Shown: in pieces, positions 9,255 through 59,222 of the stretch
Position numbering within the stretch: the first letter of the stretch is position 1
How the letters are laid out: each line of letters opens with the position of its first letter
Source: Pseudonocardia endophytica
GTDB taxonomy: Bacteria > Actinomycetota > Actinomycetes > Mycobacteriales > Pseudonocardiaceae
Length of the DNA stretch: 64,000 nt
Direction: 5' to 3'
Assembly: GCF_004339565.1 (NCBI RefSeq)
Contig: NZ_SMFZ01000002.1
Location: 992,001 to 1,056,000, forward strand
The notes under the pieces: generated by a model
What the model was told of the DNA's origin: nothing
Database searches by the model: none
What the model saw: only the letters and a program-made list of their open reading frames with translations
Program-made: the position numbers and the translations under genes

Positions 9255-9493
9255 GCAACCTGGATGCCCTCGTCTCCCGGCCACACGTCCGCTCCCCGGG
9301 CGAGGGCGACGCCTTCTGGAAGTCGTTCCAGGACGTCGTCGCCGACGACACGGTGCGCGGCAACCTCGTGCCGGATGCCCACATCGCCGCACTGATGCGA
9401 GAGCACGGCGTGACGACGATCTGGACGTCCGATCGCGACTTCCGGCGCTTTCCCGGGATCACCTCCCGCGACCCGGAGTCCTGGACGCCGTAG
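9255..9493 (+). pseudogene. VapC-type PIN-domain toxin remnant (C-terminal half)
   Basis: Translation of this stretch gives the C-terminal half of a PIN-domain ribonuclease: NLVPDAHIAALMREHGVTTIW, then TSDRDFRRFPGI, carrying two of the acidic metal-binding positions (D of PDAH and D of DRDF). The N-terminal half, with the first catalytic Asp, and the cognate antitoxin are absent. Upstream sequence in the same frame is unrelated and lies on top of the minus-strand binding-protein gene. It ends 3 bases from the glgE stop. I read it as a leftover of a VapBC module, not a working toxin. Confidence 0.65.
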
Positions 9494-9496
9494 CGC

Positions 9497-11488
9497 CTAA
9501 ACCAGCGGCAGCCGCTTCGGCAGAGCGATCACGTGCGCCACGTTGTCCCACGGCAGGAGCCGGACGAAGTTGCGCTCGCCCCACCGGAACGTCTGGCCGG
9601 TGATCTCGTCGTGCACGTCGACGACGTCGGAGTAGCGCAGCCCGAGCGCCGGCATGTCCAGCGTGATCGTGCCCTGGTTCGCCTCGTGGGCGTTCAGGTT
9701 GACCACGACGAGCACCTGGTCGCCTGTGGACGGGTGCAGCTTCGAGTAGGCGAGCAGCTGGTCGTTGTCCACCTCGTGGATGTGGATCTCCCGCAGCTGT
9801 TGCAGCGCAGGGTGTTCGCGGCGGATCTCGTTGAGCTGCGTGAGGTACGGCTCGAGCGAGCGGCCCTGGTTGACGGCGCTGTGGAAGTCGCGCGGGCGCA
9901 GCTCGTACTTCTCCGAGTCGAGGTACTCCTCGGAGCCCTCCTTCACCGGCACGCCCTCGTAGAGCTCGAATCCGGAGTAGACACCCCAGGTCGGCGACAT
10001 CGTCGCGGCCAGCGTCGCCCGGATCGCGAACATTCCGGGCCCGCCGTGCTGCAGCGACTCGTGGAGGATGTCCGGGGTGTTCGTGAACAGGTTCGGGCGG
10101 CACTCGTCGGCGTGCTCGGCGTGCATGAGCGCGAACTCGGCCAGCTCCTCCTTCTCGGTCCGCCACGTGAAGTACGTGTAGGACTGGGTGAAGCCGAGCC
10201 GAGCCAGGCCGAACAGGCGGGCCGGGCGGGTGAACGCCTCGGCTAGGAACAGCACGTCCGGGTACTGCTTCTTGATCTCCCAGATCAACCAGTGCCAGAA
10301 GTTCGGCGGCTTCGTGTGCGGGTTGTCCACCCGGAAGATCCGGACGCCGTGCTCGACCCACGTCAACGCGACGCGCAGGCACTCGGCGTACAGGCCGGCC
10401 GGGTCGCGGTCGAAGTTCAGCGGGTAGATGTCCTGGTAGCGCTTCGGCGGGTTCTCGGCGTAGGCGATGCTCCCGTCGGGGCGGACGGTGAACCACTCCG
10501 GGTGCTGCGCGACCCACGGGTGGTCCGGCGCGCACTGCAGCGCGAAGTCCAGCGCGACCTCCATACCGAGCTCGTTCGTGCGCGCCACGAACGCGTCGAA
10601 GTCGTCGAAGTCGCCCAGCTCGGGGTCGATCGCGTCGTGCCCGCCCGCCGCGGAGCCGATCGCCCACGGGGAGCCGACGTCGCCCGGCTCGGCGTGCACG
10701 GAGTTGTTGCGGCCCTTGCGGTGCACCGTACCGACCGGGTGGATCGGCGGCAGGTAGACGACGTCGAAGCCCATCTTCGCGATGCGGTCGAGCTCCTTGG
10801 TCGCGGTGACGAACGTGCCGTGCACCGGACGCCCTGTCTCGTCGCGCCCGCCGGTGGAGCGGGGGAAGATCTCGTACCAGGATCCGAACAGCGCGCGCTC
10901 GCGGTCGGCCCACACGTCGCGCTCGGGCCCCTGGGTGATCAGCTCCCGGACCGGCCGCTCGGTCATGATCGCGACGACGGCCGGGAACAGCGCGGGTGCG
11001 ACACGCGCGCGCAGCGGCAGTGCGGTGTCCCGCAACGCGTTCGCGGCGCCCATCAGCAGGTCGCGCCGGTCCTTCTCGGACGGACGGCGACCGACGCGCT
11101 GCAGCAGGCGGGCGCCGGTCTCCAGGTCGTTGGCCAGCTCGTCGGGGGTCTGCCCGGCCTCGATCTTCTTCGTGACGGCGCTGCGCCACGTCGACCACGG
11201 GTCGCTCCAGGCGTCCACCCGGAACCGCCAGCGGCCCGTCGTCGTCGGCACGACCGAGGCGACGAACCGGTCCGTCCCGACGCCCTCGGGCTCCATCCGC
11301 ACGAACTGCGACTCGCCGGGCTCACCGTCGTCGCCGATCGGGGTCCAGACGACGTTGGCCGCGATCGCGTCGTGTCCCTCGCGCCACACCGTGGCGCGGA
11401 TCGGGACGACTTCGCCGACCACGGCCTTGCTCGGATCCCCGGTCTCCACGAACGGGGTCACGTCGTCGATTCCGAGCCGTCCCGTCAT
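9497..11488 (-). CDS. glgE: Alpha-1,4-glucan:maltose-1-phosphate maltosyltransferase
   Basis: GlgE extends alpha-1,4-glucan by two glucoses at a time using maltose 1-phosphate. The 663-residue protein has an N-terminal beta domain ([15 protein letters not shown]), an insertion helix bundle and a GH13 barrel. The nucleophile Asp is about residue 388 ([14 protein letters not shown]) and the acid Glu about 417 (FLAEAFTRP). The ATG at 11488 ([10 protein letters not shown]) fits the family start better than the in-frame ATG 9 bases upstream. It is divergent from glgP, the same arrangement as Rv1327c/Rv1328 in M. tuberculosis. Its substrate is supplied by the mak gene 5 kb away. Confidence 0.96.
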
Positions 11489-17966: not shown

Positions 17967-17986
17967 GATCGGCCAGGATAGGGGTC

Positions 17987-18823
17987 GTGACCACACCCGG
18001 AACCCCTGCCGAGCCCGGCGTCACACCGATCGACTCCGAGGACCTGGTGATCGGCATGGACGGCGCCACCGTCCGTCGCGGCACCACGACCCTGCTCGAC
18101 GCCGTCGACTGGCGCGTCGAGCTCGACGAGCGCTGGGTGGTCCTCGGCCCGAACGGCGCGGGCAAGACGACGCTGCTGCGCCTGGCCGGGGCCGAGCTGC
18201 ACCCGACGTCCGGGGCCGTGCGGATCCTCGGCGAGCGGATGGGCCGGGTGAACGTGTTCGAGCTGCGCCCGCGGATCGGGCTCACCTCGGCCAACCTCGG
18301 GATCCGGATCCCCGGCGACGAGATCGTCTCCGACGTCGTCGTCTCGGCCGGGTACGGCGTGCTCGGCCGGTGGCGCGAGGACTACGAGAACGAGGACACC
18401 GACCGCGCGAAGCAGCTGCTCGACGCGCTCGGCATGGGGCGGCTCGCCGACCGGGCGTACCACACGCTGTCCGAGGGGGAGCGCAAGCGGACGCTGATCG
18501 CCCGCGCCCTGATGACCGATCCCGAGCTGCTGCTGCTCGACGAGCCGGCGGCCGGCCTGGACCTGGGTGGTCGCGAGGATCTGGTGTCCCGGCTGTCGAC
18601 GCTGGCCAACGACCCGGAGGCGCCCGCGTCGGTGCTGGTCACGCACCACGTCGAGGAGATCCCGCCCGGGTACTCGCACGGCATGCTGCTGCGCGGCGGC
18701 ACGGTGGTCGCGGCCGGGCTGCTGGACGACGTGCTCACCGACGAGACGCTGTCCGAGACGTTCGGCCTCCCGCTGACCGTCGGGCGTCGCCGGGGTCGCT
18801 TCGCCGCCTGGCGCAGCGACTGA
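17987..18823 (+). CDS. ABC transporter ATP-binding protein
   Basis: A 278-residue single-domain ATPase with Walker A GPNGAGKTT (54-62), signature LSEGERKR (161-168) and Walker B LLLLDEP (D185, E186), followed by a switch His in THHVEEI. No permease or binding protein is adjacent. THHVEEI and the LSEGE signature resemble the YlmA/ModF-like group of stand-alone or molybdate-type ATPases, but the substrate cannot be read from the sequence. Start GTG 17987 is only 20 bases from the divergent glgX start. Confidence 0.88.
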   Translation: MTTPGTPAEPGVTPIDSEDLVIGMDGATVRRGTTTLLDAVDWRVELDERWVVLGPNGAGKTTLLRLAGAELHPTSGAVRILGERMGRVNVFELRPRIGLTSANLGIRIPGDEIVSDVVVSAGYGVLGRWREDYENEDTDRAKQLLDALGMGRLADRAYHTLSEGERKRTLIARALMTDPELLLLDEPAAGLDLGGREDLVSRLSTLANDPEAPASVLVTHHVEEIPPGYSHGMLLRGGTVVAAGLLDDVLTDETLSETFGLPLTVGRRRGRFAAWRSD

Positions 18824-18824
18824 G

Positions 18825-20357
18825 TCACGCCGGAGTACCGGCGAGCTGCACCGCGACCGGGCGCGACGTCCCGTCGGCGCCGACGACGGTCAGCTCGGCA
18901 CTCGAACCCGGCATCGACGACTGCACGGCCGCCCTCAGGTCGTCCGCCGTCCCGATCACCCGGTTCCCGAAGCGGGTGACCGTGTCGCCCGGCTGCAGGC
19001 CCGCCCCGCCGCCGGTGACCCGGGCGCCGGTGTCGCCGTCGGTGACGGTGATCGGCAGCGTGGCGAGCGTCGCGTGGCCGGTGGCCAGCAGCTCGTCGGC
19101 GATCCGGCGGGCGTGGTCGATCGGGATGGCGAACCCGAGCGACTCGGCCGCGTCCTTCCCGTCGCCGGTCAGGCTGCCGCTGGTGATCCCGACGACCCGT
19201 CCCTGCGGGTCGACCAGCGGCCCTCCCGAGTTGCCGGGGTTGAGCGCGGCGTCGGTCTGGATCATGTCGACGATCTCGTCCTCCCGGCCGGCGGGGACGG
19301 GCCTGCCGAGTGCGCTGACCACGCCGCGGGTGACCGAGCCGGACAGCCCGAGCGGCTCGCCGACCGCGATCACGGACTCGCCGCGGCGCAGCGCGCCGGA
19401 GCTCCCGAGCTGCGCGGGACGCAGGCCCTGCGCGTCGGTGGCGCGCACGACGGCCAGGTCGGTCCGCGGTGCGGTGCCGACGAGCCGGAGCGGGACGACG
19501 GCGCCGTCGGAGACGACGGCCAGCAGCCGGTCCGGTGCCCCCTCGACGACGTGCGCGTTCGTCAGGATCGCGCCGTCCGGGGACAGCACGACGCCGGAAC
19601 CGCTGCTGCCGTCGGCGCCGACGATCTGCACGGTGCTCGGCGTGACGGCGTCGGCCGCCGCGGCGATCGGGTCGGACTGGGCGGCCGCTGGGGTCGGTGC
19701 GCCGGCCGACGCGTGCCCGGCGACCGCTCCGGCCGTGGCCCCGCCGACCAGGCAGGCGAGCGCCAGCACCAGGGCGGGCACCACCCGTCGCGATCCGTGG
19801 AAGGTGGCTGGCGACGGGGGCCGGAACGGCGGGTGGGGCCCGTACGGTCCCGGGTCCGACTCCGACGGTGCCGGGAGTCTCGGAGCCGGGAACGACGGCG
19901 CCGCCCGGCGCGGGTCGGGCTGCCGTACGGGCGCCTGCGGCATCGGCGGGGCGTGCCGCGTCGCGCCGTCCTGGTACGTCGAGTGCTGTGCGGCGGACCG
20001 GTATGCGGCGGACCGCTGCCGGTCGGCGGCCGGGCCGAGAGCGGCAGGCGTCGATGATGTGGTGGCCGGACGCGTCGGCGGTTGCCGGGTAGGCGTGGGC
20101 CCGGTCGGTACGGAGACGGGTCGGCCGGAAGGGGCGGGCCGCTGCGCAGTGGCCCGCGGCGCCGGGGGCGCCGACCCGGATGCCGGGCCCGACCGCGACA
20201 CGGGTCCCGACTCCGCCGGTGCGACCTGCACGGTGGCGTCGGTGTCCGGTGCGACGGTCGCCGCCGGGGCCGATCCGGTCCTCTCCGGTATCGACTCTCC
20301 GGCCGTCCGCGAACCGTCCGCGGGGTCGATGTCGAGTCGCGTACGGGTGTCGCTCAT
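18825..20357 (-). CDS. Membrane-anchored HtrA/DegP-like serine protease with PDZ domain
   Basis: A 510-residue trypsin-like protease. The N-terminal 185 residues are cytosolic, Pro/Ala/Ser-rich and disordered-looking. One transmembrane helix follows (VPALVLALACLVGGATAG). The extracytoplasmic protease has H269 (TNAHVVEG), D300 (RTDLAVVR) and S377 (NPGNSGGPL), and a degenerate PDZ-like domain closes the protein. This is the architecture of mycobacterial PepD/HtrA-type quality-control proteases. The ATG 20357 is preceded by GGAGGGG. It is convergent with the ABC gene, one base between the stops. Confidence 0.9.
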   Translation of the reverse strand: MSDTRTRLDIDPADGSRTAGESIPERTGSAPAATVAPDTDATVQVAPAESGPVSRSGPASGSAPPAPRATAQRPAPSGRPVSVPTGPTPTRQPPTRPATTSSTPAALGPAADRQRSAAYRSAAQHSTYQDGATRHAPPMPQAPVRQPDPRRAAPSFPAPRLPAPSESDPGPYGPHPPFRPPSPATFHGSRRVVPALVLALACLVGGATAGAVAGHASAGAPTPAAAQSDPIAAAADAVTPSTVQIVGADGSSGSGVVLSPDGAILTNAHVVEGAPDRLLAVVSDGAVVPLRLVGTAPRTDLAVVRATDAQGLRPAQLGSSGALRRGESVIAVGEPLGLSGSVTRGVVSALGRPVPAGREDEIVDMIQTDAALNPGNSGGPLVDPQGRVVGITSGSLTGDGKDAAESLGFAIPIDHARRIADELLATGHATLATLPITVTDGDTGARVTGGGAGLQPGDTVTRFGNRVIGTADDLRAAVQSSMPGSSAELTVVGADGTSRPVAVQLAGTPA

Positions 20358-47078: not shown

Positions 47079-47693
47079 ATGGGCGTGACCACGTCGCAGC
47101 AACCCCGGCCCGGCCGCCACGCGCGGCCCGACGACTCCGACGGCAGCCTGCCCTCGGGGCCGTCGTCGCTGCCGCCGGTGCCGCGACCGCGGACCGTGGG
47201 GGAGTACGTGACGTCGACGCAGGTCGAGCAGACCGGACCGATCGGACCGGGCTTCGGGGAGTGGCCGTTCGGTCCCCGCAGGCAGGCCGACGGAGGCCGT
47301 GAGCCCGTCGGCGACGAGGACGACGAGTTCGCCGGGCAGAACCCGTACCTGCCGTGCGAGGAGGAGGCGGCAGAGGTCCGGCTCGCGCCGGGTGGGCTGC
47401 CCGGGACGCTCGCGCTGGTCGCCGGTGTCGTCGGGATCGGGTTGGCGCTGGTGCCGTTCATCGCGATCGCCGTGTGGCCGGTGACGATCCTCGGGCTGGT
47501 ACTCGGGTTCGTCGGTCTGCGACGGGTGCGTGCCGGCTCGGCCCGCAACTCCGTCGTCGCCGTGGCCGGGATCGTGCTGTCCGCGGTCGGCCTGGCGCTC
47601 TGCGTGACATGGTTGTCGTTGTTCGCCGTGGTCGGGGTCGGATCCGCCCAGGACCTCATCGAGCGGACACCGATCCCCGTGCTCGTCCGATAG
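47079..47693 (+). CDS. DUF4190-like membrane protein
   Basis: A 204-residue protein: an N-terminal Pro/Gly/Glu-rich cytosolic region (about 1-105) followed by two long hydrophobic hairpins (LALVAGVVGIGLALVPFIAI, then a GLVLGFVGLRRVRAG turn and VVAVAGIVLSAVGLALCVTW). The GLVLGFVGLRRVRAG element is the DUF4190 signature. Function unknown. ATG 47079; GTG 47085 is an alternative. It follows element B directly. Confidence 0.75.
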   Translation: MGVTTSQQPRPGRHARPDDSDGSLPSGPSSLPPVPRPRTVGEYVTSTQVEQTGPIGPGFGEWPFGPRRQADGGREPVGDEDDEFAGQNPYLPCEEEAAEVRLAPGGLPGTLALVAGVVGIGLALVPFIAIAVWPVTILGLVLGFVGLRRVRAGSARNSVVAVAGIVLSAVGLALCVTWLSLFAVVGVGSAQDLIERTPIPVLVR

Positions 47694-47710
47694 CGGCTAC
47701 GGTCGGGGTC

Positions 47711-48808
47711 GTGCTCGACGATCGACTCCTGCTCGGCCCCGGGCCCTCGAACCCGTACCCCGAGGCGACCGAGGCGCTCACCCGTCCCGTGCTCGGCCAT
47801 CTCGACCCGGCCTACCTGGCGCTGGTCGGTGAGATCTCCGACCGGCTGCGGGCGGTGTTCCGCACCGCGAACGAGCTGACGCTTCCGGTCTCCGGGACCG
47901 GCTCGTCGGGCATGGAGGCGTGCCTGGCGTCGCTGCTCGAGCCGGGCGACACGATCGTCGTCGGCGTCAACGGCTACTTCGGCGAACGGCTCGTGCAGGT
48001 CGCGATGCGGCTCGGCGCCGAGATCGTGCGCGTCGAGGCGCCCTGGGGCACGCCGCTGGACCCGGGTGACCTGCTCGCCGCCCAGCGTGCGCACCCGCAT
48101 GCGGTGCTGCTCGCCGTCGTCGCGGCGGAGACATCGGTCGGCGTGCGCAACGACGTCGCCGCGCTCGGCACCGAGCTGGCCTCCACCGACACGTTGCTGC
48201 TGGTGGACGCCGTGACCGCGCTCGGCGGCACCCCGCTGGAGGTCGACGCATGGGGTGTCGACGCGTGCTACTCGGCCTCGCAGAAGTGTCTCGGCGCGCC
48301 GCCGGGGCTGGCCCCGGTGACGTTCGGTGAGCGCGCGGTGGCCCGGATGCGGGCACGGAGCACGCCGGTGTCGTCGTTCTACCTGGACATGGGCCTGCTG
48401 CAGCAGTACTACCAGGCCTCGCCGCCGGTGTATCACCACACGGCGTCGTCGGTGCTGGCCGCGTCGCTGCACGCCGGACTCGGGCGGCTGCTCGACGAGG
48501 GACTCGAGGCGACCTGGGTGCGCCACGAGCGCGTCGGGAAGGCGCTGCAGAACGGGCTCACCGATCTCGGCTTCGGGATGGTCGCCGACGAGAAGGCGCG
48601 CCTCCCGCAGCTCACCGCCACCACGCTGCCGTCCGGCAAGGAGGAGGCACCCCTGCGGCGTCGCCTGCTCGACGGGTACGGCATCGAGGTCGGTGGCGGG
48701 CTCGGCGAGTTCGCCGGGAAGGCCTGGCGGATCGGGCTGATGGGGCACAACGCGACCGACCGGTCCGTCGCGACCGTCCTCGGTGCGATCCGCGACGTGC
48801 TGGGCTGA
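47711..48808 (+). CDS. Class V aminotransferase (alanine-glyoxylate / serine-pyruvate type)
   Basis: A 365-residue fold-type I PLP enzyme. N-terminal LLLGPGPSNPYPEA, the GTGSSGMEA phosphate-binding segment, LLVDAVTALGG with the ring-stacking Asp, and the Schiff-base Lys in YSASQKCLGAPPG are the marks of the alanine-glyoxylate/serine-pyruvate aminotransferase group. GTG 47711. It lies 17 bases after the DUF4190 stop. It detoxifies glyoxylate or degrades serine in characterised members. Confidence 0.88.
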   Translation: MLDDRLLLGPGPSNPYPEATEALTRPVLGHLDPAYLALVGEISDRLRAVFRTANELTLPVSGTGSSGMEACLASLLEPGDTIVVGVNGYFGERLVQVAMRLGAEIVRVEAPWGTPLDPGDLLAAQRAHPHAVLLAVVAAETSVGVRNDVAALGTELASTDTLLLVDAVTALGGTPLEVDAWGVDACYSASQKCLGAPPGLAPVTFGERAVARMRARSTPVSSFYLDMGLLQQYYQASPPVYHHTASSVLAASLHAGLGRLLDEGLEATWVRHERVGKALQNGLTDLGFGMVADEKARLPQLTATTLPSGKEEAPLRRRLLDGYGIEVGGGLGEFAGKAWRIGLMGHNATDRSVATVLGAIRDVLG

Positions 48809-48817
48809 GCCGGGCGG

Positions 48818-49492
48818 TCAGCTCGTCGCGGAACGGACACCCTCGAGCGCCTCGAGGATCAGCTGCCGGCCGTGCTCGGCGTGGTCGCGGGCGACGCGCT
48901 CGGCACGGTCGCCGTCGCGGTCGACGATGGCGTCCAGGATCGCGGTGTGGTCCTCCCACACCCAGGCCGGCGCGTCACCGCGGTAGAGGACCTCGCTCAT
49001 CACGCGCTGCACGTTCTGCCAGATCACACCGGAGCTCTCCAGCAGCAGCGGGTTACCGGACTGCTCCATGACGAAACGGTGGAAGTCCACGTCGGCGGTG
49101 ACCATGTGCGCGAACGCGCGGTCCCGCTCGGCCTGCCGTCCGGCCTCGACCAGCGACTCCCCGCGGATGCGCACCTCGGGCGTCAGTCCCTCGAAGGCGG
49201 CCGACCGCGCCGCGTAGCCGTCGAGCACGGCCCGCAGGCCGTAGAGCTGGCGCACGAACTCCGCGTCGACCGGGGCCACCTCGACGCCACGACGGCCGAC
49301 CTCGCGCAGCAACCCCTGGTTGCGCAGCAGCAACAACGCCTGCTGGACGGGTTGGCGCGACACCTCGAACCGGTCGGCCAGCTCCTCCTGGCGCAGCCGT
49401 GTCCCCGGGGCGAGGCGTCCCGTGCAGATGTCGTCGACGATCGCGTCATAGACCTGCTGCACGCGCGACGGTGGCGTCGGAAGCGCGGTCAT
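48818..49492 (-). CDS. GntR-family (FadR subgroup) transcriptional regulator
   Basis: A 224-residue regulator. The N-terminal winged helix shows VYDAIVDDICTGRLAPGTRL, then RQEELADRFEVSRQPVQQAL, and the C-terminal all-helical FCD domain has metal-binding-like D-x3-H positions (VDFHRFVME, EDHTAILDAI). It is divergent from the ThDP lyase operon and a perfect 14-bp palindrome lies between, so it is the probable repressor of that operon, with a pathway metabolite as ligand. Confidence 0.9.
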   Translation of the reverse strand: MTALPTPPSRVQQVYDAIVDDICTGRLAPGTRLRQEELADRFEVSRQPVQQALLLLRNQGLLREVGRRGVEVAPVDAEFVRQLYGLRAVLDGYAARSAAFEGLTPEVRIRGESLVEAGRQAERDRAFAHMVTADVDFHRFVMEQSGNPLLLESSGVIWQNVQRVMSEVLYRGDAPAWVWEDHTAILDAIVDRDGDRAERVARDHAEHGRQLILEALEGVRSATS

Positions 49493-49606
49493 CCGCAGTC
49501 CTCCCCGTACGACACTCGCCCCTCCGACCTCGTTCGTGCACCGGTGTCGGGATCAGGATAGTCGGCCGGGTGGGCCGTCCGGACGGATGTGCCGCTTCGA
49601 TTTGAC

Positions 49607-49620
49607 TACTGAATTCAGTA
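49607..49620. promoter_or_regulatory. 14-bp palindromic operator (GntR site candidate)
   Basis: TACTGAATTCAGTA is a perfect palindrome and AT-rich compared with its surroundings. It lies between the divergent GntR and lyase starts, 104 bases before the lyase ATG at 49724. Its length and symmetry suit a FadR-subgroup dimer. Confidence 0.72.
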
Positions 49621-49723
49621 TGCGGCAGGTTGGTGGTCCACGTCACCCCGGAGCCGGGAGTGCTCCGAGTGTGGACCTGCAACACCGATGTCGCTCAGTG
49701 AGTCGCTCAGTGAGGAGCAGTGC

Positions 49724-51427
49724 ATGACCGGGGATCCGTCCAGAACCGTCGCGGAGCTGATCGCGACGTTCCTGCACGAACGAGGGGTCCGGCGGGTGTT
49801 CGGCCTGCAGGGCGGGCACATCCAGCCGATATGGGACCAGCTCGCCCGCCTCGGTGTGTCCATCGTCGACGTCCGTGACGAGGCGGCCGCCGTGCACCTC
49901 GCGCACGCCCACTCCGAGCTGACCGGCGAGATGGGCGTCGCGCTGGCGACGGCGGGCCCCGGCGTCACGAACACGGTCACCGCCGTCGCGAACGCGTCGG
50001 TCTCCCGGATCCCGCTGATCCTGATCGGCGGCTGCCCACCGCGGCCGCAGTCGAACAAGCACCCGCTGCAGGACATCCCGCACACCGAGATCCTGGCGCC
50101 GGTCACCCGCCAGTCGCGCACGCTGCGCTGGCACGACGAGGTCCTGCGGGAGTTCGACGAGGGGTGGTCCCGCGCGCTGGGCGACGCGGGCGAGCCGGGC
50201 CCGGTCTACCTGGAGATCCCGACCGACGTGCTGCGCGAGACGCCGGCCCCCGCGACCGTGCTGGACGAGCACCTCACGCCCCGCCCGAAGCACCGCTCGC
50301 TGCCGCACCCCGACGACGTCGCGGCGATCGCGTCGCTCGTCGGAAAGTCGTCGAAGGTCGCCGTGATCACCGGCCGCGGCGCCCGACCGGCCCGGGACGC
50401 GCTGATCCGCTTCCTGGACGCGTCCGGCGCCGCCTACCTGGACACCCAGGAGGGCCGCGGGCTCGTCCCGCCCGACCACCCGGCCGTCGTCGGCGCGCTG
50501 CGCTCCCGCGTCATGCGCGACGCCGACCTGGTGATCACCGTCGGGCGCCAGCTCGACTACCAGCTCGGCTTCGGCTCACCGGCTGCGTTCCCGAACGCCA
50601 CGTTCGTACGGATCTCCGACTCGGCCGGCGAGCTCTACGACAACCGCCGCGGCGCCGTCGAGATCCTCGCCGACGTGCCGTCCACGTTGGACGCACTCGC
50701 GGACGCCACGTCCGGCGACCCGGCCTGGCGGGACGAGCTGCGAGCGGCCCACCTGGAGCGCTTCGACGGCTACCGGGACAAGCTCGCGTCGGCTCCGGCG
50801 GGCGAGGACGGGCTGATGCACCCGAACCACATCTTCGCCGCGCTGCAGGACGTCGACCTGAACGGCGCCACGGTCGTCGCGGACGGCGGGGACCTGCTGT
50901 CCTTCGCCCGGCTCGGCATCCCGTCGACGGCCCGGTACCTCGACGCGGGCGCGTTCGGCTGCCTCGGCGTCGGCGTCCCGTTCGCGATCGCGGCGGCGCT
51001 GAACAACCCGGACCGGCCGGCCATCGCGGTCACCGGCGACGGCGCGTTCGGCATCAACGCGATGGAGGTCAACACGGCCGTCCGGCACGGCGCGAAGATC
51101 GTCGTGATCGTCTCGAACAACTCCGCCTGGAACATCGAGCGCTACGACCAGGCCGAGAACTACGGGCTCGTCGTCGGCACCGAGCTGGAGCACAACGACT
51201 ACGCCGCGCTGGCCGAGGCACTCGGCGCGCACGGCGAGCGGGTCACCGAGCCCGGCCAGATGGCAGGAGCCCTGAAGCGGGCGCTGGACAACGCGCCGGC
51301 CGTGATCGACGTCGTGACCAGCCGCGACGCGCCGTCGCCGGATGCGGGCAAGGGGCTCGGCTGGGTCCCGGACTACCAGGCGCTCACACCGTGGAACGAC
51401 GCCGAGGTCGAGCGGAGGAAGGGCTGA
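49724..51427 (+). CDS. Thiamine-diphosphate enzyme, candidate 2-hydroxyacyl-CoA lyase
   Basis: A 567-residue ThDP enzyme of the acetolactate synthase/oxalyl-CoA decarboxylase superfamily. The activating Glu is E53 ([16 protein letters not shown]), and the Mg-ThDP motif is GDGAFG at 438 to N465-N466. An [12 protein letters not shown] segment (E472) follows. The ATG 49724 is preferred to 49688 because GAGGAG lies 7 bases before it. It is first of a five-gene operon with a CoA ligase two bases downstream, which argues for a CoA-ester substrate. I suggest 2-hydroxyisobutyryl-CoA (or similar) to ketone plus formyl-CoA; another carboligase is possible. Confidence 0.8.
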
Positions 51428-51429
51428 TC

Positions 51430-52830
51430 ATGGCAGGCGACGCGATGGAGGAGTGGCACTGGCCTGCGGGCTACGACCAGGAGTACCTCCCTGATCCGGA
51501 CAGCCCGTACTGGTTCCCGAACCGGGAGACCATGGATCCGGAGGAGCGCGACGCGGCGATCCTGGAGCGGCTCCCGCAGGTGATCCAGTACGCCTACGAC
51601 AACTCGCCGTTCTACAAGCGCAAGTACGACGAGGCGGGGCTGGAGCCCAAGGACATCACGACGTGGGAGGCGTTCTCCCAGGTCCCGGTCGTCGTGAAGG
51701 AGGAGCTGCGCCAGGCGCAGATCGACGCGCCGCCGTTCGGTGACTACGGGTGCATCCCGGACAGCGAGGTGCACCACATCCACGGGACCTCGGGCACCAC
51801 CGGGACCCCGACCGGGTTCGCGATCGGCCGCCGCGACTGGGAGGTGATCGCGGACAACCACGCGCGGATCCTCTGGGGCATGGGCGTGCGCCCCGGTGAC
51901 ACCGTGTTCGTGTCCGCCCTGTTCTCGCTCTACCTCGGTTCCTGGGGTGCCATGTCCGGCGCGGAACGCCTGCGCTGCAAGGTGTTCCCGTACGGAGCGG
52001 GCGCCTCCGGCATGACCAGCCGGGCGCTCGGCTGGCTCGCCCGCACGCAGCCGAAGGCGTTCTACGCCACACCGTCCTACGCGCTGCGCCTGGCCGAGGT
52101 CGCCGAGGAGGAGAAGGTCGACCCGCGCGAGTTCGGCATCAAGATCATGTTCTTCTCCGGCGAGCCGGGAGCGTCCGTCCCGGCGGTGCGGAACAAGATC
52201 GAGAAGGCGTTCGACACGCGCGTCGTGGACTGCGGGACGATGGCCGAGATGACGCCGTTCATGTCGGCGTCGGCCACCGACGGCAGCCCGGACGGGATGC
52301 TGCTCTGGCAGGACATCGTCTACCACGAGATCTGCGACCCGGACACCTACAAGGCCGTCCCGTACGGCGACGAGGGCACTCCGGTCTATACGCACCTGGA
52401 GCGCACGTCCCAGCCGATGATCCGGCTGCTCTCCAAGGACCTCAGCCGCTGGGAGATGAAGGAGAACGGCTGCGGGCGCACGTACCCGAGCATGCCCGTC
52501 GGGGTCTACGGCCGGATCGACGACATGATCCACATCCGGGGCGAGAACGTGTACCCGACGGAGATCGACAACGTGCTGCGCGAGATCTCCGGGTACGGCG
52601 GCGAGCACCGGGTGATCGTCACCCGCACCGGCTCGATGGACGAGATCAAGGTCCGGGCCGAGTACGACGGCTCGGACACCTCGGAGTTCGAGAAGGCCGC
52701 GTCGTCGGGCCTGCACCGCGTCGTCGGGCTGCGGGTCGGCGTCGAGGTCGTCGAGAAGGACACGTTCGAGCGCAGCGAGCACAAGGCCAACCGCGTGGTC
52801 GACGAACGCGAGCACACGAAGAAGCAGTAG
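51430..52830 (+). CDS. Phenylacetate-CoA ligase-like acid:CoA ligase
   Basis: A 466-residue PaaK-type AMP-forming ligase. N-terminal YAYDNSPFYKRKYDEAGL, P-loop HGTSGTTGTPTG, and the hinge region VYGRIDDMIHIRGENVYPTE are clear. It starts 2 bases after the lyase stop. PaaK relatives act on aryl-acetates, but also on short hydroxy acids; in this operon it should make the CoA ester used by the lyase. A C-terminal Lys-rich end (ERSEHKANRVVDEREHTKKQ) is present. Confidence 0.88.
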   Translation: MAGDAMEEWHWPAGYDQEYLPDPDSPYWFPNRETMDPEERDAAILERLPQVIQYAYDNSPFYKRKYDEAGLEPKDITTWEAFSQVPVVVKEELRQAQIDAPPFGDYGCIPDSEVHHIHGTSGTTGTPTGFAIGRRDWEVIADNHARILWGMGVRPGDTVFVSALFSLYLGSWGAMSGAERLRCKVFPYGAGASGMTSRALGWLARTQPKAFYATPSYALRLAEVAEEEKVDPREFGIKIMFFSGEPGASVPAVRNKIEKAFDTRVVDCGTMAEMTPFMSASATDGSPDGMLLWQDIVYHEICDPDTYKAVPYGDEGTPVYTHLERTSQPMIRLLSKDLSRWEMKENGCGRTYPSMPVGVYGRIDDMIHIRGENVYPTEIDNVLREISGYGGEHRVIVTRTGSMDEIKVRAEYDGSDTSEFEKAASSGLHRVVGLRVGVEVVEKDTFERSEHKANRVVDEREHTKKQ

Positions 52831-52879
52831 CCGCGCACGCTCTCCCCCACGTTCAGATCCGAGCACGAGGAGAAGGTCA

Positions 52880-54403
52880 ATGACGACCACGGAGCAGAAG
52901 CTCACCGTGGACCAGGACGCCCGCACCGCGGAGCACGCGTCGATGTTCATCGACGGCGCGTTCGTCCCGGCCGGATCGGGCGGCACGTTCGAGACCGTCG
53001 ACCCGAACACCGGGAAGACGATCGCCCAGGTCCCCCGCGCCGACGGAACCGACGTCGACAAGGCGGTCGCCGCCGCCAAGCGGGTCGCCGTCGACTGGCA
53101 GTTCACGGACGCGCTCGGGCGTGCCGCGCTGCTGCGGGCGCTGGCCGAGAAGGTCACCGAGAACGCCGACGAGCTGGCCCGCCTGGAGGCGCTGGACTCC
53201 GGGCACTACCTGGCCAAGGCCCAGGAGCTGGTCGGCGCGATCCCGATCTGGCTGGACTACTGGGCGTCCCTGGCGGACAAGGTCGGCGGCCGCCAGATCG
53301 AGGTCCCGGGAAACAAGCTGTCGTTCACGCTGCTCGAGCCGCTCGGCGTGACGGCGCACATCATCCCGTGGAACTACCCGCTGCTGATCCTCGTCCGCTC
53401 CTGCGCGCCGGCGCTGGCGCTCGGCAACACGTGCGTCGTGAAGCCGGCCGAGGACACGTCGCTGTCCGCGCTCAAGTTCGCCGAGCTCGTCAAGGAGGCG
53501 GGCTTCCCGGACGGCGTGTTCAACGTCGTCACCGGCTACGGCGGCGAGGCGGGCGCGGCGCTCGCGTCGCACCCCGACGTCGCGGGCATCACGTTCACCG
53601 GCTCGACGGCCACCGGCAAGGAGGTCGCCAAGCTCGCCGCCGACCACGTCGCGCAGGTGAACCTGGAGCTCGGCGGCAAGAGCCCGACCGTCGTGTTCCC
53701 GGACGCCGGGCTGGAGGACGCCGTCGAGGCCGCCGTGCAGGGCTTCTGCTCGCACGCCGGTCAGGTCTGCGTGGCCGGGACGCGGCTGTTCGTGCACCAG
53801 GACATCAAGGACGAGTTCCTGACCGCGCTCACCGAGAGGCTGAACCAGGCCACGATCGGCGACGGGTTCGCCGACGGCGTCGAGATGGGCCCGCTGATCT
53901 CGAAGACCCAGTACGACAAGGTCCGCGAGTACATCGAGGTCGGCAAGAGCGAGGGCACGCTCTACTACGGCGGCGGCCGTCCGGAGGGCACCGACGAGGG
54001 CGGGTTCTTCGTCGAGCCCACCGTGTTCACCGACGTCGCGAACTCGGCGCGGATCGCCCAGGAGGAGATCTTCGGGCCGGTCGCCTCGGTGATCACCTGG
54101 TCGTCCGAGGACGAGCTCGTCGAGGCCGTCAACGACAGCCCGTACGGCCTGTTCGCCGTGCTGCTGGGCAGCGACATCAAGCGCCTGCTCTCGACCGCCC
54201 GCCGGCTCCAGGTCGGTGGCGTGATGATCAACGACTGGTTCGGCGAGCTGCCGATGACCCCGCACGGCGGGCACAAGCAGAGCGGTACCGGCCGCGAGGA
54301 GGGCCTGGAGGCCGTCCACGGCTACACGCAGGTCAAGCACGTGTCCATCAACCTCGACGACTCGCTGCGGGCCGGGACCGAGTGGCCCGGTGCCCCGCTG
54401 TAG
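52880..54403 (+). CDS. NAD(P)-dependent aldehyde dehydrogenase
   Basis: A 507-residue ALDH. Catalytic Cys C297 (HAGQVCVAGTRLF), general base E263 (NLELGGKSP), the cofactor segment PWNYPLLI, and KPAEDTSLSALK are present. It follows the ligase by 49 bases. In the operon it probably oxidises an aldehyde such as 2-hydroxyisobutyraldehyde to the acid that the ligase activates; the role resembles that of MpdC in the mycobacterial 2-methyl-1,2-propanediol route. Confidence 0.92.
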   Translation: MTTTEQKLTVDQDARTAEHASMFIDGAFVPAGSGGTFETVDPNTGKTIAQVPRADGTDVDKAVAAAKRVAVDWQFTDALGRAALLRALAEKVTENADELARLEALDSGHYLAKAQELVGAIPIWLDYWASLADKVGGRQIEVPGNKLSFTLLEPLGVTAHIIPWNYPLLILVRSCAPALALGNTCVVKPAEDTSLSALKFAELVKEAGFPDGVFNVVTGYGGEAGAALASHPDVAGITFTGSTATGKEVAKLAADHVAQVNLELGGKSPTVVFPDAGLEDAVEAAVQGFCSHAGQVCVAGTRLFVHQDIKDEFLTALTERLNQATIGDGFADGVEMGPLISKTQYDKVREYIEVGKSEGTLYYGGGRPEGTDEGGFFVEPTVFTDVANSARIAQEEIFGPVASVITWSSEDELVEAVNDSPYGLFAVLLGSDIKRLLSTARRLQVGGVMINDWFGELPMTPHGGHKQSGTGREEGLEAVHGYTQVKHVSINLDDSLRAGTEWPGAPL

Positions 54404-54432
54404 GCCCTTCGACCAGGACAGGAGACACCACC

Positions 54433-55077
54433 ATGAGTGACGCAGCACTGGGGGAGGCGCCCGCACCGTTCGGGGCGCCGGAGGGGACCGCCCTCCCGGG
54501 AGAGGCGGGCGGCTTCTTCGAGGTCGGCCGGCCCCGCATCGGCGGTCTGCTGCACCCGATCTCGTTCAGCGACCTGCAGGCGCAGGTGATCAAGGCCGTC
54601 GCGGACACGATGATCCCGCCGGACCCGAAGTGGCCGACGGCGAGCGAGATCGGCATCGTCGAGTTCGTCGGCCGCTACGTGACGCCGAGCGGGTACCGGA
54701 ACAAGCACTTCCCGTTCGCAGGAGAGGACGAGTTCAAGGCCGGTCTCGACCAGCTCGGGCAGTCCTTCGTGGACGGTGACACGACGTTCCGGACCAACGC
54801 GATCGCCTCGCTGGAGAACGCCGAGGACCCGCTGTTCGAGCAGCTGCGGGCGCTCGTCTACTACGGCTACTACTCGCGCCCGCGGGTCACGCTCGCGATC
54901 AACGACAACCTGCCTGCCGGCCGCGACTACCACGGCCCGCCGCTGCCCTACGGCTACCTGCAGACCACGGAGCCGTGGGACGAGGAACTGCTCGCGCAGG
55001 CCGAGGAGAACGGCTCCTACCTCGAGACCGACGAGGTCGTGCGCGTCGACCTCTCCAAGCTCACCTGGACCAAGTGA
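54433..55077 (+). CDS. Gluconate 2-dehydrogenase subunit 3-like protein
   Basis: A 214-residue helical protein of the Gluconate_2-dh3 type, typically the small partner of GMC-type dehydrogenases. The VIKAVADTMIPPDP segment and the late YYGYYSRPRVTLAIND region fit the family. Family members are often exported by a Tat signal; here none is seen, so it may work in the cytosol. Its stop is 7 bases before the GMC gene ATG, and they probably form a complex. Confidence 0.8.
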   Translation: MSDAALGEAPAPFGAPEGTALPGEAGGFFEVGRPRIGGLLHPISFSDLQAQVIKAVADTMIPPDPKWPTASEIGIVEFVGRYVTPSGYRNKHFPFAGEDEFKAGLDQLGQSFVDGDTTFRTNAIASLENAEDPLFEQLRALVYYGYYSRPRVTLAINDNLPAGRDYHGPPLPYGYLQTTEPWDEELLAQAEENGSYLETDEVVRVDLSKLTWTK

Positions 55078-55084
55078 GGAACGC

Positions 55085-56737
55085 ATGGCCGCATACGAGG
55101 AGACCGACGTCCTGATCATCGGGGCGGGCCCCGGCGGGGCCGGGATCGCGCTCAAGCTGGCCAAGGCCGGCGTGAACGTGGTGTGCCTGGAGCAGGGCCC
55201 CTGGGTCCAGCCGAACGAGCACCCGCACTACCACGACGAGTGGGAGCTGGAGAAGCAGCGCGGGTGGGCCTACGACCCGAACGTGCGCCAGCTGCCGGAG
55301 GACTACCCGGTCACCGGCACCACGACGCCGTACATGATGAACAACGTCGGCGGGTCCACCGTGCACTACGCGGGGCACTGGCCGCGCTACAAGCCGGTCG
55401 ACTTCCGCAAGGGGACCGAGCACGGTCTCGAGGGGACGATCGACTGGCCGATCTCCTACGAGGACCTCGCCCCGTTCTACGACGAGAACGACGAGATCTA
55501 CGGCATCTCCGGCCGGATCGGCGACCCGTCCTACCCGGACCGCAAGCAGGCCGTCCGTGACCCGGAGGTACTGCCCGGCAAGCTCGGCCTGAAGTACGCC
55601 AAGGCGTCGCGCGACCTCGCCTGGCACTGGTGGCCGTCCGACAACGCGATCATCACGGTGGACCGGGAGAACCGGAAGGCCGACCAGGCGACCGGCAACG
55701 AGCTGTCCGGCAGCCCGACCGGGTCGCTGTCCACGCCGGCCAACGCCCACTGGCCGTTCGCCATCCGGCACGGGGCCGACCTGCGGACGTTCGCCCGGGT
55801 CGAGACGATCAACGCCGACGGCGGCAAGGCCACCGGCGCGACCTACATCGACCGCAGGACGGGCGACCGGCACGAGGTCCGGGCCAAGATCGTCGTGCTG
55901 GCGGCCAATGGGATCGGCTCGCCGCGCCTGCTGCTGCAGAGCGCGCAGAAGGGTCACCCGGACGGGCTGGCGAACTCGAACGGCATCGTCGGGAAGTACC
56001 TGATGCACCACGTGTTCGCGTTCTGCGACTCGTGGTTCGACGAGCCGGTGGAGGGCTTCAAGGGCGCGTTCGGAGCACCGCTCTACTCGCACGAGTTCTA
56101 CCACACGGACATGGACCGGGGATTCGTCAACGGTTTCGGCATGCAGGTCGCGCGCAGCTTCGGACCGGCCTACGCCGCGATGGGCACGCACACCGGCTAC
56201 ACCGCTCCGTGGGGCGAGAAGCACCGCGAGTTCTTCGACGGACACTTCGCCAACCACCTGATGGTCTTCATGTTCGGCGAGGACCTCCCGGTGGAGACGA
56301 ACACGGTGACGCTCGACCCGGATGTCAAGGACTCGTCCGGGCTGCCGGCCGCGCACGTCAACTACGAGCTGCACCCGAACGACGTCGCGCTCGCGGAGTA
56401 CGGCATCGAGAAGATCTTCGAGGCCACCCGTGCGGTGGGTGCGGTGGAGACGAACGACACCGGCGTGCTCTACCCGCCGCCGGCCTGGCACCTGATGGGC
56501 ACCTGCCGGATGGGCAACAACCCCGGCGACTCGGTGCTCAACAAGTGGTGCCAGACCTGGGACGTGCCGAACCTGTTCGTCGTGGACGGCAGCACGCTCA
56601 CCACGGGCGGCGCGGTCAACCCGACGAGCACGATCGGTGCCCTGTCCCAGCGGACCGGCGAGTACATCCTGCGCAACTGGGACGCACTCGTCGCACAGAC
56701 GACGACGCCGTCGAACGCGGACGCGCCGGAGATGTGA
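55085..56737 (+). CDS. GMC-family FAD oxidoreductase
   Basis: A 550-residue flavoprotein. FAD site IIGAGPGGAGIALKLAKAG; NNVGGSTVHYAGHWPRY is the GMC-type loop; catalytic-type His in WHLMGTCRMG and NPTSTIGAL (conserved Asn) close the C-terminus. With the preceding small subunit it forms an alcohol dehydrogenase, probably feeding the ALDH. MpdB of the diol pathway is also a GMC enzyme. Followed by a strong palindromic terminator. Confidence 0.9.
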   Translation: MAAYEETDVLIIGAGPGGAGIALKLAKAGVNVVCLEQGPWVQPNEHPHYHDEWELEKQRGWAYDPNVRQLPEDYPVTGTTTPYMMNNVGGSTVHYAGHWPRYKPVDFRKGTEHGLEGTIDWPISYEDLAPFYDENDEIYGISGRIGDPSYPDRKQAVRDPEVLPGKLGLKYAKASRDLAWHWWPSDNAIITVDRENRKADQATGNELSGSPTGSLSTPANAHWPFAIRHGADLRTFARVETINADGGKATGATYIDRRTGDRHEVRAKIVVLAANGIGSPRLLLQSAQKGHPDGLANSNGIVGKYLMHHVFAFCDSWFDEPVEGFKGAFGAPLYSHEFYHTDMDRGFVNGFGMQVARSFGPAYAAMGTHTGYTAPWGEKHREFFDGHFANHLMVFMFGEDLPVETNTVTLDPDVKDSSGLPAAHVNYELHPNDVALAEYGIEKIFEATRAVGAVETNDTGVLYPPPAWHLMGTCRMGNNPGDSVLNKWCQTWDVPNLFVVDGSTLTTGGAVNPTSTIGALSQRTGEYILRNWDALVAQTTTPSNADAPEM

Positions 56738-56943: not shown

Positions 56944-57723
56944 TCAGTTCAGCTTGCGCGTGTCCGCGGGCAGGCCGCCGCCGGCGTAGACGTCCTCGGC
57001 CAGCTTCGCCAGCGCGGTGAGCGCGACGTTCTGGCTCCACGGTCCGTAGGACACCCGGGACACGCCGAGCTCCTGCGCGCGGGTGAGCGGGATCGAGCCA
57101 GGGATGCCGATCAGGTTGACCTTGCGCTCGCCGAGTGCCTCGACCAGGCGTCCGACCTGCGTCTCGTCGAGCTTGCCGGGCACGAAGTAGTTGGACGCGC
57201 CCGCGTCCAGGTAGGCGCGCCCGCGCTCGACGGCGTCGGCCAGCACGTCGTCGGGGTCGCGGTCGCCCGCCTTGAGGAACACGTCGGTGCGCGCGTTCAG
57301 CACGAAGTCGATACCCGACGCCTGCGCAGCCGCCACGGCGGCCTCGACCGCCTTCACGGACTCGTCGAGCGGCCTGGCCTGGTCCTCCAGGTTGCAGCCG
57401 ACGGCACCCACCTCGATCGCCTTCGTGACGGTCCCGCCCGGGTCGCCGTAGCCGGCCTCCAGGTCGGCGGTGACCGGCAGGTCGCCCGCCGTCCGCACGA
57501 TCAGCCCGATCTCGGAGATCATCAGGTCGCGCGGGATGTTCTCGCCGTCGGCGTACCCGCGGGAGGCGGCGATGCCGTGGCTCGGGGTGGCCAGCGCCCG
57601 CGTCCCGGTCGTCTCGGCGACGACCTTCGCGGTGATCGCGTCCCACACGTTGACGACGAGCAGCAGCTCCGGTGCGGCGTGCAGCTCCTGCAGCCGTGTG
57701 GCCTTCTCGGCGGTGGAGGTCAT
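56944..57723 (-). CDS. Isocitrate lyase/PEP mutase family protein
   Basis: A 259-residue barrel protein. VVNVWDAITAKVV (start), the Mg-site region VTADLEAGYGD, the NLEDQ loop and VLNARTDVFL are typical of the ICL/PEP mutase superfamily, in the carboxyphosphonate/oxaloacetate-type branch. The ATG 57723 is used. Convergent with the GMC gene and not part of that operon. Reaction cannot be named; a 2-methylisocitrate-type C-C lyase is possible. Confidence 0.83.
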   Translation of the reverse strand: MTSTAEKATRLQELHAAPELLLVVNVWDAITAKVVAETTGTRALATPSHGIAASRGYADGENIPRDLMISEIGLIVRTAGDLPVTADLEAGYGDPGGTVTKAIEVGAVGCNLEDQARPLDESVKAVEAAVAAAQASGIDFVLNARTDVFLKAGDRDPDDVLADAVERGRAYLDAGASNYFVPGKLDETQVGRLVEALGERKVNLIGIPGSIPLTRAQELGVSRVSYGPWSQNVALTALAKLAEDVYAGGGLPADTRKLN

Positions 57724-57878
57724 GTGGTCACCGTAGGCCGGGGGCCGGGGGACCGCCCGGCCGAGCCGGCCGAGCGCACCGAGGCGGTCCGGGTCGTCGT
57801 TGCCCTGGGGCGGGTCGGCGTCGGCGGGCTCGTCCACATGGGACTCCCGACGCCCTCTCTTCTTCCTGGACGCGTGAG

Positions 57879-58225
57879 TCACTCGTCCACGACGGCGACG
57901 GGCGGGTCCGGCGACGGCCGCCGCTCCCCGTCGTCGCCGGACACCGGCAGTCCTTCCCGGACCCACCACTCGAAGCCGCCGATCATCTCCTTGACCGGCA
58001 CGCCGAGCCGGGCGACCGCGGGTCGCGCCGTTGCAACCGGGTCCCCAGCAGTGGACGACGGCGGTGGCGCCGACCGGCACGACGTCGCGCCCGTGGTCCG
58101 CGACCGCCGCACGCGGGAGGTGCACCGCACCCGGCACGTGCCCGTGGCGAACGCCTCCGCCGAACGCCCTGCCCGGCGAGCAGCGTCCCGGTCGCGCACC
58201 GACCAGGTTCCGGCCACGGTGATGA
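57879..58225 (-). pseudogene. Rhodanese-domain protein with two compensating frameshifts
   Basis: The start (RSAEAFATG) and end (ARLGVPVKEMIGGFEWWVRE) of a rhodanese domain lie in one frame, but the middle HVPGAVHLPRAAV and the active-site loop HCWGPGCNGATR read in another. A one-base loss near 58140 and a two-base loss near 58026 explain both shifts. The Cys loop would thus not be translated in the main frame. It also lacks a normal N-terminus. Either a decaying gene or two sequence errors. Confidence 0.7.
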
Positions 58226-58765
58226 TCAGTCGAACCAGGACCGGCCGTCGCCGTCGTCGCGGCGGTCGCCCCCGGAGGTGAAGCCGCTCTCGGTGAGGTC
58301 GGGGCCTGACGGTCGTTCCTCGTCGGGGCCGTCCGGACCGAGCTCGATCAGCGTGCGCAGGCGGGCGGCGTCGGCGGTCAGGGTGCGCTGCAGGGAGCGC
58401 CGCAGGCCCGGCACGAAACGCAGCAGGCCGGGTGGGCGCACGCGCGTCTCCAGACGGATGCGACACCCGTCGTCGCCGATCGCCGTGACCTCGCGGGAAC
58501 CCTCGGCGTCCACTCCGGACGTCGTGCGCCACGAGAACCGGCGGCCGTCGTCGACGGAGGTGACCTCGCCGTCGTTGCGCATCGTCCGGCCGGCCGCGCG
58601 GAGCCACTCCACGGTCGTCGTGCCGCGCCGGACCGGACCCGACGGCGTCGGCACCATCGACCGGACACCCTTGCGCCACTGGACGTCCCGCGCGTAGTCG
58701 GCGACGACCGCCCACGCCTCGGCAGCCGGCGCGTCCACCTCGACGGCGGCCTCCAGGACGATCAT
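58226..58765 (-). CDS. SRPBCC (START-like) family protein
   Basis: A 179-residue protein with a polyketide-cyclase/START-like fold: VDAPAAEAWAVVADYARDVQWR, RGTTTVEW, and a long C-terminal helix (LRRSLQRTLTADAARLRTLIE), plus a Gly/Asp-rich tail of about 40 residues. ATG 58765 overlaps the SnoaL-like stop by 4 bases. The fold binds small hydrophobic ligands. Ligand unknown. Confidence 0.82.
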   Translation of the reverse strand: MIVLEAAVEVDAPAAEAWAVVADYARDVQWRKGVRSMVPTPSGPVRRGTTTVEWLRAAGRTMRNDGEVTSVDDGRRFSWRTTSGVDAEGSREVTAIGDDGCRIRLETRVRPPGLLRFVPGLRRSLQRTLTADAARLRTLIELGPDGPDEERPSGPDLTESGFTSGGDRRDDGDGRSWFD

Positions 58766-59163
58766 GCCGCACCGGCCCCGGCGGGCAGGACGGCCGACCA
58801 GAACGCGTCGACGTGCGCCTGGTCGCGGTTGTGGAACCAGAACTCGGCGACGCGGCCGTCCTCGATCCGCATCAGGTGCACCGTGAGGTTGTCCAGGCGG
58901 GCGTCGCCCCGGTCGGCGCGCACGCGCACGTAGGCAGCGGCGTGGTGCGAGCCGCCCATCACGTCGAGCACCTCCATGCTCGCGCCGGCCGACGACGAGG
59001 CGCCGAGGAACGCCAGGACCGCGTCGCGGCCGCGGTGGGCGCCGCCGTTCGGGTGCGAGCCCGGGTCGTGCAGCACGACGTCCGGGGCGAGCAGGTCGAG
59101 CAGCGCGGACGGGTCGGAGGCGGCCGCGGCGTAGAGGCGGCGGGCGATGACGTTTGCTTCCAT
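58762..59163 (-). CDS. SnoaL-like (NTF2-fold) protein
   Basis: A 133-residue NTF2-fold protein: LYAAAASDPSALLDLLAPDVVLHDPG, HRGRDAVLAFLG and VAEFWFHNRDQAHVDAFW. The group includes ester-type hydrolases, isomerases and plain binding proteins. ATG 59163 is chosen; in-frame ATGs upstream add 6 and 12 residues with no family match. Divergent from a MarR gene across an AT-rich 60 bases, so its operon with the SRPBCC gene is likely under that regulator. Confidence 0.8.
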   Translation of the reverse strand: MEANVIARRLYAAAASDPSALLDLLAPDVVLHDPGSHPNGGAHRGRDAVLAFLGASSSAGASMEVLDVMGGSHHAAAYVRVRADRGDARLDNLTVHLMRIEDGRVAEFWFHNRDQAHVDAFWSAVLPAGAGAA

Positions 59164-59222
59164 GCATTGAAAATTAGACATCGAAATATATGGCGTCAAG
59201 AGTCGAGCGTTAGGCTGGCCCG
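59164..59222. promoter_or_regulatory. AT-rich divergent promoter/operator
   Basis: The stretch TTGAAAATTAGACATCGAAA and onward to GGCGTCAA is the most AT-rich sequence in the neighbourhood, lying between the divergent SnoaL and MarR starts. TTGA and TCAA flank it symmetrically. A MarR operator and the promoters probably lie here. Confidence 0.5.

Follow-up and report, generated by a model that had tools for sequence, protein, structure and literature searches.

The genes considered here have a published counterpart in the lyase–ligase cluster of Actinomycetospora chiangmaiensis, an organism that degrades 2-methylpropane-1,2-diol (MPD) and 2-hydroxyisobutyric acid (2-HIBA) via acetone and formate. 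In the sections of PMC7176365 drawn on here, the cluster encodes a GntR regulator, a 2-hydroxyacyl-CoA lyase (HACL; WP_018331913), a 2-hydroxyisobutyrate-CoA ligase (HCL), the aldehyde dehydrogenase MpdC, a small subunit and the MPD dehydrogenase MpdB, and a conserved lyase–HCL cluster is reported for Pseudonocardia too. The five proteins of the operon are 23- to 39-fold more abundant on 2-HIBA than on acetone, on which the cluster is almost absent, and the lyase is active when expressed in E. coli (PMC7176365).

We analyzed a stretch of 64,000 nucleotides from Pseudonocardia endophytica (contig NZ_SMFZ01000002.1, positions 992,001 to 1,056,000), referred to below as the window, whose coordinates are used throughout. 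It contains a HACL-type lyase gene with hcl directly 3' of it, followed by mpdC, the small-subunit gene and mpdB, and a divergent GntR gene, all features of the actinobacterial lyase–HCL clusters. We put at about 0.92 the probability that this locus is the Pseudonocardia copy of the published cluster, running from the diol to acetone and a C1 unit. The identities to the locus of A. chiangmaiensis DSM 45062, the characterized strain, are 67% for the lyase (tblastn), 73% for HCL, 83% for MpdC, 67% for the small subunit, 86% for MpdB and 67% for GntR.

An initial annotation, made from the sequence without database searches, had described five closely packed genes and a divergently oriented GntR gene, and translation and Pfam comparison confirmed this layout. 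Every gene of the set scores above its family cut-off, and the translated genes are separated by 2 bases (lyase–ligase), 49 bases (ligase–aldehyde dehydrogenase), 29 bases (aldehyde dehydrogenase–small subunit) and 7 bases (small subunit–MpdB). When operons in related genomes were compared, as that annotation had proposed, the six-gene order recurred, including in the characterized strain, and chance arrangement is excluded because the order is repeated in other genomes. Within the genus of the window, a lyase at E ≤ 1e-100 is found in 6 of 62 genomes, its own included, and the other five carry the six-gene set. An earlier sample of 41 relatives held the lyase set only in the window's own genome.

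Table 1. Genes and candidate regulatory elements of the lyase–HCL locus (window coordinates).
Feature	Position	Strand	Basis
GntR/FCD-family regulator	48818..49492	-	divergent; Pfam GntR 60.9 bits, FCD 83.1 bits
-35-like TTGACT	49602..49607	+	TTGAC abuts palindrome
TACTGAATTCAGTA, perfect palindrome, probable GntR operator in promoter spacer before lyase	49607..49620	.	core conservation
Putative weak -10-like CAGGTT	49626..49631	+	spacer of 18 from the -35-like TTGACT
2-Hydroxyacyl-CoA (2-hydroxyisobutyryl-CoA) lyase, thiamine diphosphate (ThDP)-dependent	49724..51427 (open reading frame opens at 49688)	+	NF058623; PDB 7pt1; A. chiangmaiensis lyase
2-Hydroxyisobutyrate-CoA ligase (HCL)	51430..52830	+	PDB 6hdw match; A. 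chiangmaiensis HCL
Aldehyde dehydrogenase MpdC (2-hydroxyisobutyraldehyde dehydrogenase)	52880..54403	+	Pfam Aldedh 541.7 bits; A. chiangmaiensis MpdC
MPD dehydrogenase small subunit, gluconate-2-dehydrogenase-subunit-3 family	54433..55077	+	PF13618 33.4 bits, cut-off 23.4
GMC flavoprotein MpdB (MPD dehydrogenase large subunit)	55085..56737	+	A. chiangmaiensis MpdB; without 3Fe-4S cysteines

Lyase, ligase and the proposed route

The lyase scores 979.5 bits against the actinobacterial HACL model NF058623 of NCBIfam (cut-off 600), with no other family reaching its cut-off among the 25 of 53 families listed, and 843 bits against PDB 7pt1. Its alignment with the A. chiangmaiensis lyase (AcHACL), which the initial annotation had suggested as a check, contains 393 identical residues among 570 aligned and shows the CoA-contact residues to be present. 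All 22 positions taken from the parts of PMC8760513 used here, which describes the AcHACL structures PDB 7PT1–7PT4, are unchanged in the window lyase: Q41, G43, H44, E65, T88, L127, Q128, Q255, R273, S274, R362, R417, I492, E493, D561 and K564, together with six residues that fill the ADP site. Among these, E493 and Q128 are assigned catalytic roles, and L127 and I492 limit substrate size (PMC8760513). The C-terminal lid also matches that of AcHACL, for which PMC8760513 gives a rate of 1.3 per second. Outside the 22 positions, residue 488 is R in AcHACL and S in the window lyase. The in-frame ATG at 49,724 is a likelier start than position 49,688, where the open reading frame begins, because a GAGGAG ribosome-binding site lies upstream of it at 49,712–49,717.

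The ligase had been labeled PaaK-like, a description that did not hold up. It matches the 2-hydroxyisobutyryl-CoA synthetase structure PDB 6HDW, which we take to be the HCL of Aquincola tertiaricarbonis, with 649 bits over residues 5–461 of 466, compared with 219 bits for phenylacetate-CoA ligase (PaaK). On sequence comparison, the enzyme is HCL-like and not PaaK-like. As a separate observation on the following gene, mpdC is missing between hcl and the small-subunit gene in 7 of 13 Actinomycetospora loci (L009, L010, L012, L016, L019, L021 and L022), the rest of those genomes not having been searched for it; among the remaining six, the sequence of L011 stops within mpdC.

In the proposed route, MpdB with its small subunit would oxidize MPD to 2-hydroxyisobutyraldehyde, MpdC would convert this to 2-hydroxyisobutyrate, HCL would form the CoA ester, and the ThDP lyase would cleave 2-hydroxyisobutyryl-CoA to acetone and formyl-CoA. 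A MimABCD-type monooxygenase, whose genes lie outside this locus in the same genome, would next hydroxylate the acetone, while formyl-CoA would pass through formate to CO2. This order of steps, from diol through aldehyde, acid and CoA ester to ketone plus C1 unit, had been anticipated in the initial annotation and draws support from the identities, residues and order of the genes. By analogy with A. chiangmaiensis, we infer that the window copy shares the substrates of that system.

Two MimABCD-type clusters are present among the eight stretches of the window genome that were compared (G000:C1:3002500-3019000 and G000:C2:1368500-1386000). As query (L120) we used the open reading frames from the region of the two PF02332 hits in A. 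chiangmaiensis; their sizes of 550, 395, 561, 342 and 349 residues led us to equate them with the published Mim cluster (PMC7176365, Table 1). Identities to A. chiangmaiensis for the C1 and C2 clusters, respectively, are 93% and 92% for MimA, 85% and 83% for MimC, and 86% and 86% for the chaperone; the C2 cluster also has an alcohol dehydrogenase (89%) and an amidohydrolase-like protein (73%). The genome further encodes a formate dehydrogenase alpha chain whose reading frame is uninterrupted by stop codons (914.6 bits, cut-off 666.25). In all, 14 matches to PF02332, a family of diiron oxygenases, occur in this genome and apparently make up seven two-subunit systems; A. chiangmaiensis has two such matches.

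Three other readings of the locus were weighed. (i) The same enzymes may act mainly on C5 compounds. In this route 2-methylbutane-1,2-diol, or diols derived from isoprene, would pass through 2-hydroxy-2-methylbutyryl-CoA or the corresponding 3-enoyl ester, and the products would be formyl-CoA and either butanone or methyl vinyl ketone. The A. chiangmaiensis lyase also turns over a C5 substrate almost as fast (PMC7176365), so the true substrate could be 2-hydroxy-2-methylbutyrate or an acid derived from isoprene; this result weighs against a C4 assignment. The 14 PF02332 hits would accommodate several alkene- or alkane-oxidizing systems. However, MpdB and MpdC share 86% and 83% identity with their counterparts in a strain shown to grow on the C4 diol (PMC7176365), and the genome holds two acetone-type Mim clusters; we regard a C5 main substrate as unlikely. 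(ii) The lyase could instead be an acetolactate synthase or another 2-keto-acid enzyme working with an aryl-CoA (PaaK) ligase in aromatic catabolism, and the window enzymes are indeed distant members of the same superfamilies. We reject this reading. The best acetolactate synthase model gives the lyase 335.6 bits (cut-off 587) and the PaaK model TIGR02155 gives the ligase 251.9 bits (cut-off 646.3), both below threshold; the 25 of 53 families listed for the lyase do not include a benzoylformate decarboxylase model; and E493, which acetolactate synthase lacks (PMC8760513), is present. By sequence, these results do not bear out the outcomes that the initial annotation had named as counting against its proposal, namely a ThDP protein grouping with acetolactate synthase or benzoylformate decarboxylase and lacking the CoA pocket, or a ligase restricted to aryl acids. 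(iii) Synthetic operation, from formyl-CoA and ketones to 2-hydroxyacyl-CoA, is conceivable in that the lyase reaction is reversible (PMC8760513), but it is highly improbable: the diol and aldehyde dehydrogenases are encoded in the same direction and the ligase consumes ATP, which fits breakdown, and the A. chiangmaiensis cluster is strongly induced on 2-HIBA and nearly absent on acetone (PMC7176365).

Iron–sulfur ligands of the diol dehydrogenase

In window MpdB, the three positions that hold the 3Fe-4S cysteines of FAD-dependent glucose dehydrogenase (FAD-GDH) are occupied by D200, E206 and S210. Of the 35 GMC proteins placed in a tree, 21 have the C-x5-C-x3-C motif and 14 lack the full set. 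These 14 make up one side of a branch with support 100/100, so that one change suffices, and all 21 rows outside the clade of window MpdB keep the three cysteines. The tree is midpoint-rooted, and the direction of the change, a loss, rests on that root and on the FAD-GDH motif; L125–L141 entered it as the best tblastn piece only, and L011, which ends inside mpdC, was excluded. The first-branching member of the cysteine-lacking group, L018, retains one cysteine. The set is likewise absent from the added Pseudonocardia copies L148–L150, whereas the corresponding operon of Pseudonocardia sp. 73-21 (L014) encodes a cysteine-bearing GMC protein, 64% identical. One in-frame TGA occurs in each of L128, L139 and L141; for a selenocysteine route, the best SelB candidate reached 239.5 bits against a cut-off of 242.25, and ARAGORN found no tRNA in the four loci scanned.

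The initial annotation had regarded the small subunit as an addition to the known scheme. This was mistaken, as Table 1 of PMC7176365 already lists WP_018331916.1 as the 'small subunit of MPD dehydrogenase', induced 23-fold. In the window, the protein has no cysteine, and RR is absent from its first 35 residues, so that MpdB and the small subunit are likely to form a cytoplasmic pair. It is the sole PF13618 match in the window genome. Its fold model (pLDDT 66.6) gave no Foldseek match at E ≤ 0.001 and no VIA match among 70 chains, and a profile search of its family gave no PDB match; no link to the fold of the FAD-GDH gamma subunit emerged from these comparisons. The search for a cytochrome c gene was confined to the operon, which has gaps of 2–49 bases and a next recognized gene on the opposite strand and contains none.

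MpdB is labeled as reducing NAD(P)+ in PMC7176365, where the A. chiangmaiensis protein is described as 76% identical to MpdB of Mycolicibacterium austroafricanum. We consider it an evenly balanced proposition that the MPD dehydrogenase of Pseudonocardiaceae lost its 3Fe-4S relay once, with the small subunit and the operon position both retained, and that it thus turned from an electron-transfer dehydrogenase into an enzyme passing electrons from FAD directly to another acceptor (oxygen, a quinone or a soluble carrier), in which case the NAD(P)+ label would be wrong. A narrow search of the open literature found no paper joining gluconate 2-dehydrogenase subunit 3, GMC and iron–sulfur. The missing ligands draw attention to the electron acceptor of the diol dehydrogenase, an enzyme that bears on the breakdown of fuel ethers and isobutene. 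Elsewhere, an Antarctobacter plasmid (NZ_CP022541.1; L142, 5249–7560) encodes a subunit-3 protein with a cysteine-bearing GMC protein 60% identical to MpdB, and transposase genes lie near this pair.

Regulator and candidate operator

GntR orthologues of 64–76% identity adjoin the lyase gene in 15 of the 80 lyase loci compared, which were the top 80 among 143 relatives, and in all five Pseudonocardia stretches. Of these five, L151 and L152 were taken as the same records as L025 and L014, leaving L148–L150 as the only added copies. All 16 actinobacterial loci with a GntR gene, the window counted, contain the core CTGAATTCAG; it also lies near GntR in 16 of the 25 remaining GntR-bearing lyase loci, most of them proteobacterial, giving 32 of 41 overall. 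When all 1024 palindromic 10-mers were ranked, the runner-up reached 14 of the 41 loci and was taken to be conserved GntR coding sequence. The longer form TWCTGAATTCAGWA occurs in 15 of the 16 actinobacterial loci, the exception being L011. Genome-wide, it is found once in the window genome and once in each of 13 of 15 other genomes searched; the two genomes that lack it, those of L023 and L024, have no GntR hit at their lyase locus. A weak operator-like site with three mismatches in the window genome (G000:C2:975450) was taken as chance. In all 16 aligned actinobacterial sites TTGAC abuts the palindrome, and L148 and L150 likewise have TTGAC and the core before the lyase gene.

These sequence patterns suggest that the palindrome is a probable GntR operator and GntR a probable repressor of the operon, which would act through this site in the promoter spacer and be released by a pathway metabolite. 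Several results weigh against this assignment. The exact core is absent from 9 of the 25 non-actinobacterial GntR loci, whose best sites differ from the 16-base form at 2 to 9 positions, and it occurs in 3 of 40 loci that have no clustered GntR. A sigma-70 promoter scan of the region returned nothing above threshold, and at L149 (Pseudonocardia genome G462) the core at the lyase site is preceded by TTGCG rather than TTGAC.

The G462 genome has a second perfect palindrome with TTGAC (L149, 10197–10215), located before a major facilitator superfamily (MFS) gene (L153, 1294–2604). The encoded protein scores 147.9 bits against MFS_1, and its nearest NCBIfam models, those for D-galactonate and 4-hydroxyphenylacetate transporters, both remain below cut-off. 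It is a candidate uptake system for the pathway, and such a site would fit a repressor induced by the imported hydroxy acid or its CoA ester. A narrow search of the open literature found no paper holding both the operator core and GntR. The conserved palindrome offers a direct and cheap test of how the pathway is switched.

Relatives and comparison with known systems

The operon most likely ends at 56,737, because the next recognized gene, of the phosphoenolpyruvate (PEP)-mutase family (56,944–58,137), is on the other (minus) strand. Beside it is a gene for a polyketide-cyclase-like protein (58,226–59,167, minus strand), and upstream of the operon lies a class-V aminotransferase gene (47,354–48,808, plus strand); no link of these genes to the pathway was seen.

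A usable lyase was obtained from 74 of the 80 loci. An HCL orthologue above 400 bits is present in 18 of the 80, 16 of them actinobacterial and two from Hyphomicrobiales. An AMP-binding ligase of another type is found in 55 of the 80, within 250 bases of the lyase gene on either side in 48 of these 55; the one such ligase examined combines PF00501 with PF13193 and lacks a C-terminal domain of the PaaK type. Among the 57 usable lyases numbered L026 and above, each active-site position is kept in 55 to 57 proteins, except S274, which is A in 46, G in nine and S in two. The loci with this other type of ligase probably handle different 2-hydroxy acids, having the lyase and in many cases the regulator in common with the HCL clusters while using another ligase. 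All 55 fall among L026–L088 and mostly consist of proteobacterial lyases beside a FadD-like ligase, some with a DctP-type (tripartite ATP-independent periplasmic, TRAP) binding protein, a short-chain dehydrogenase/reductase (SDR) or an acyl-CoA dehydrogenase as well.

Two further relatives are recorded here. In Rubrobacter marinus (L023), the lyase gene (9001–10707) has no HCL or GntR hit nearby, and matches to the GMC protein, small subunit and aldehyde dehydrogenase lie about 6 kb away on the other strand (16458–19680). The plasmid NC_008826.1 of Methylibium petroleiphilum PM1, a fuel-ether degrader (PMC7176365), encodes at 493484–495190 a ThDP protein that shares 49.6% identity with the window lyase.

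The locus itself mainly adds one Pseudonocardia copy of a known pathway. Since that pathway is already published, what the analysis adds is the probable operator palindrome and the absence of iron–sulfur ligands in the GMC enzyme. Relative to A. chiangmaiensis, all six counterparts are present in identical order with GntR divergent, MpdB there likewise lacks the iron–sulfur cysteines, and the palindrome core is identical; the differences are the 67–86% sequence identity and the two Mim-like clusters in the window genome versus one in A. chiangmaiensis. The ibc clusters of Mycolicibacterium sp. ELW1, as presented in the parts of PMC13188929 (2026) used here, also lead from isobutylene via the diol to 2-HIBA and include a ThDP lyase and a GntR regulator. 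For that strain, however, the authors assign the main route after 2-HIBA to a B12 mutase and to the lyase a possible minor one. The Aquincola HCL, too, is partnered by a B12 mutase instead of a lyase (PMC7176365). Finally, the FAD-GDH of Burkholderia cepacia (PDB 6A2U), as described in the portions of PMC6719666 consulted, resembles the window pair in combining a GMC catalytic subunit with a small partner, and its FAD-contacting His105 aligns with H94 of window MpdB, whereas window MpdB lacks the 3Fe-4S cysteines, its small subunit lacks the RR at its start, and the window operon has no cytochrome gene.

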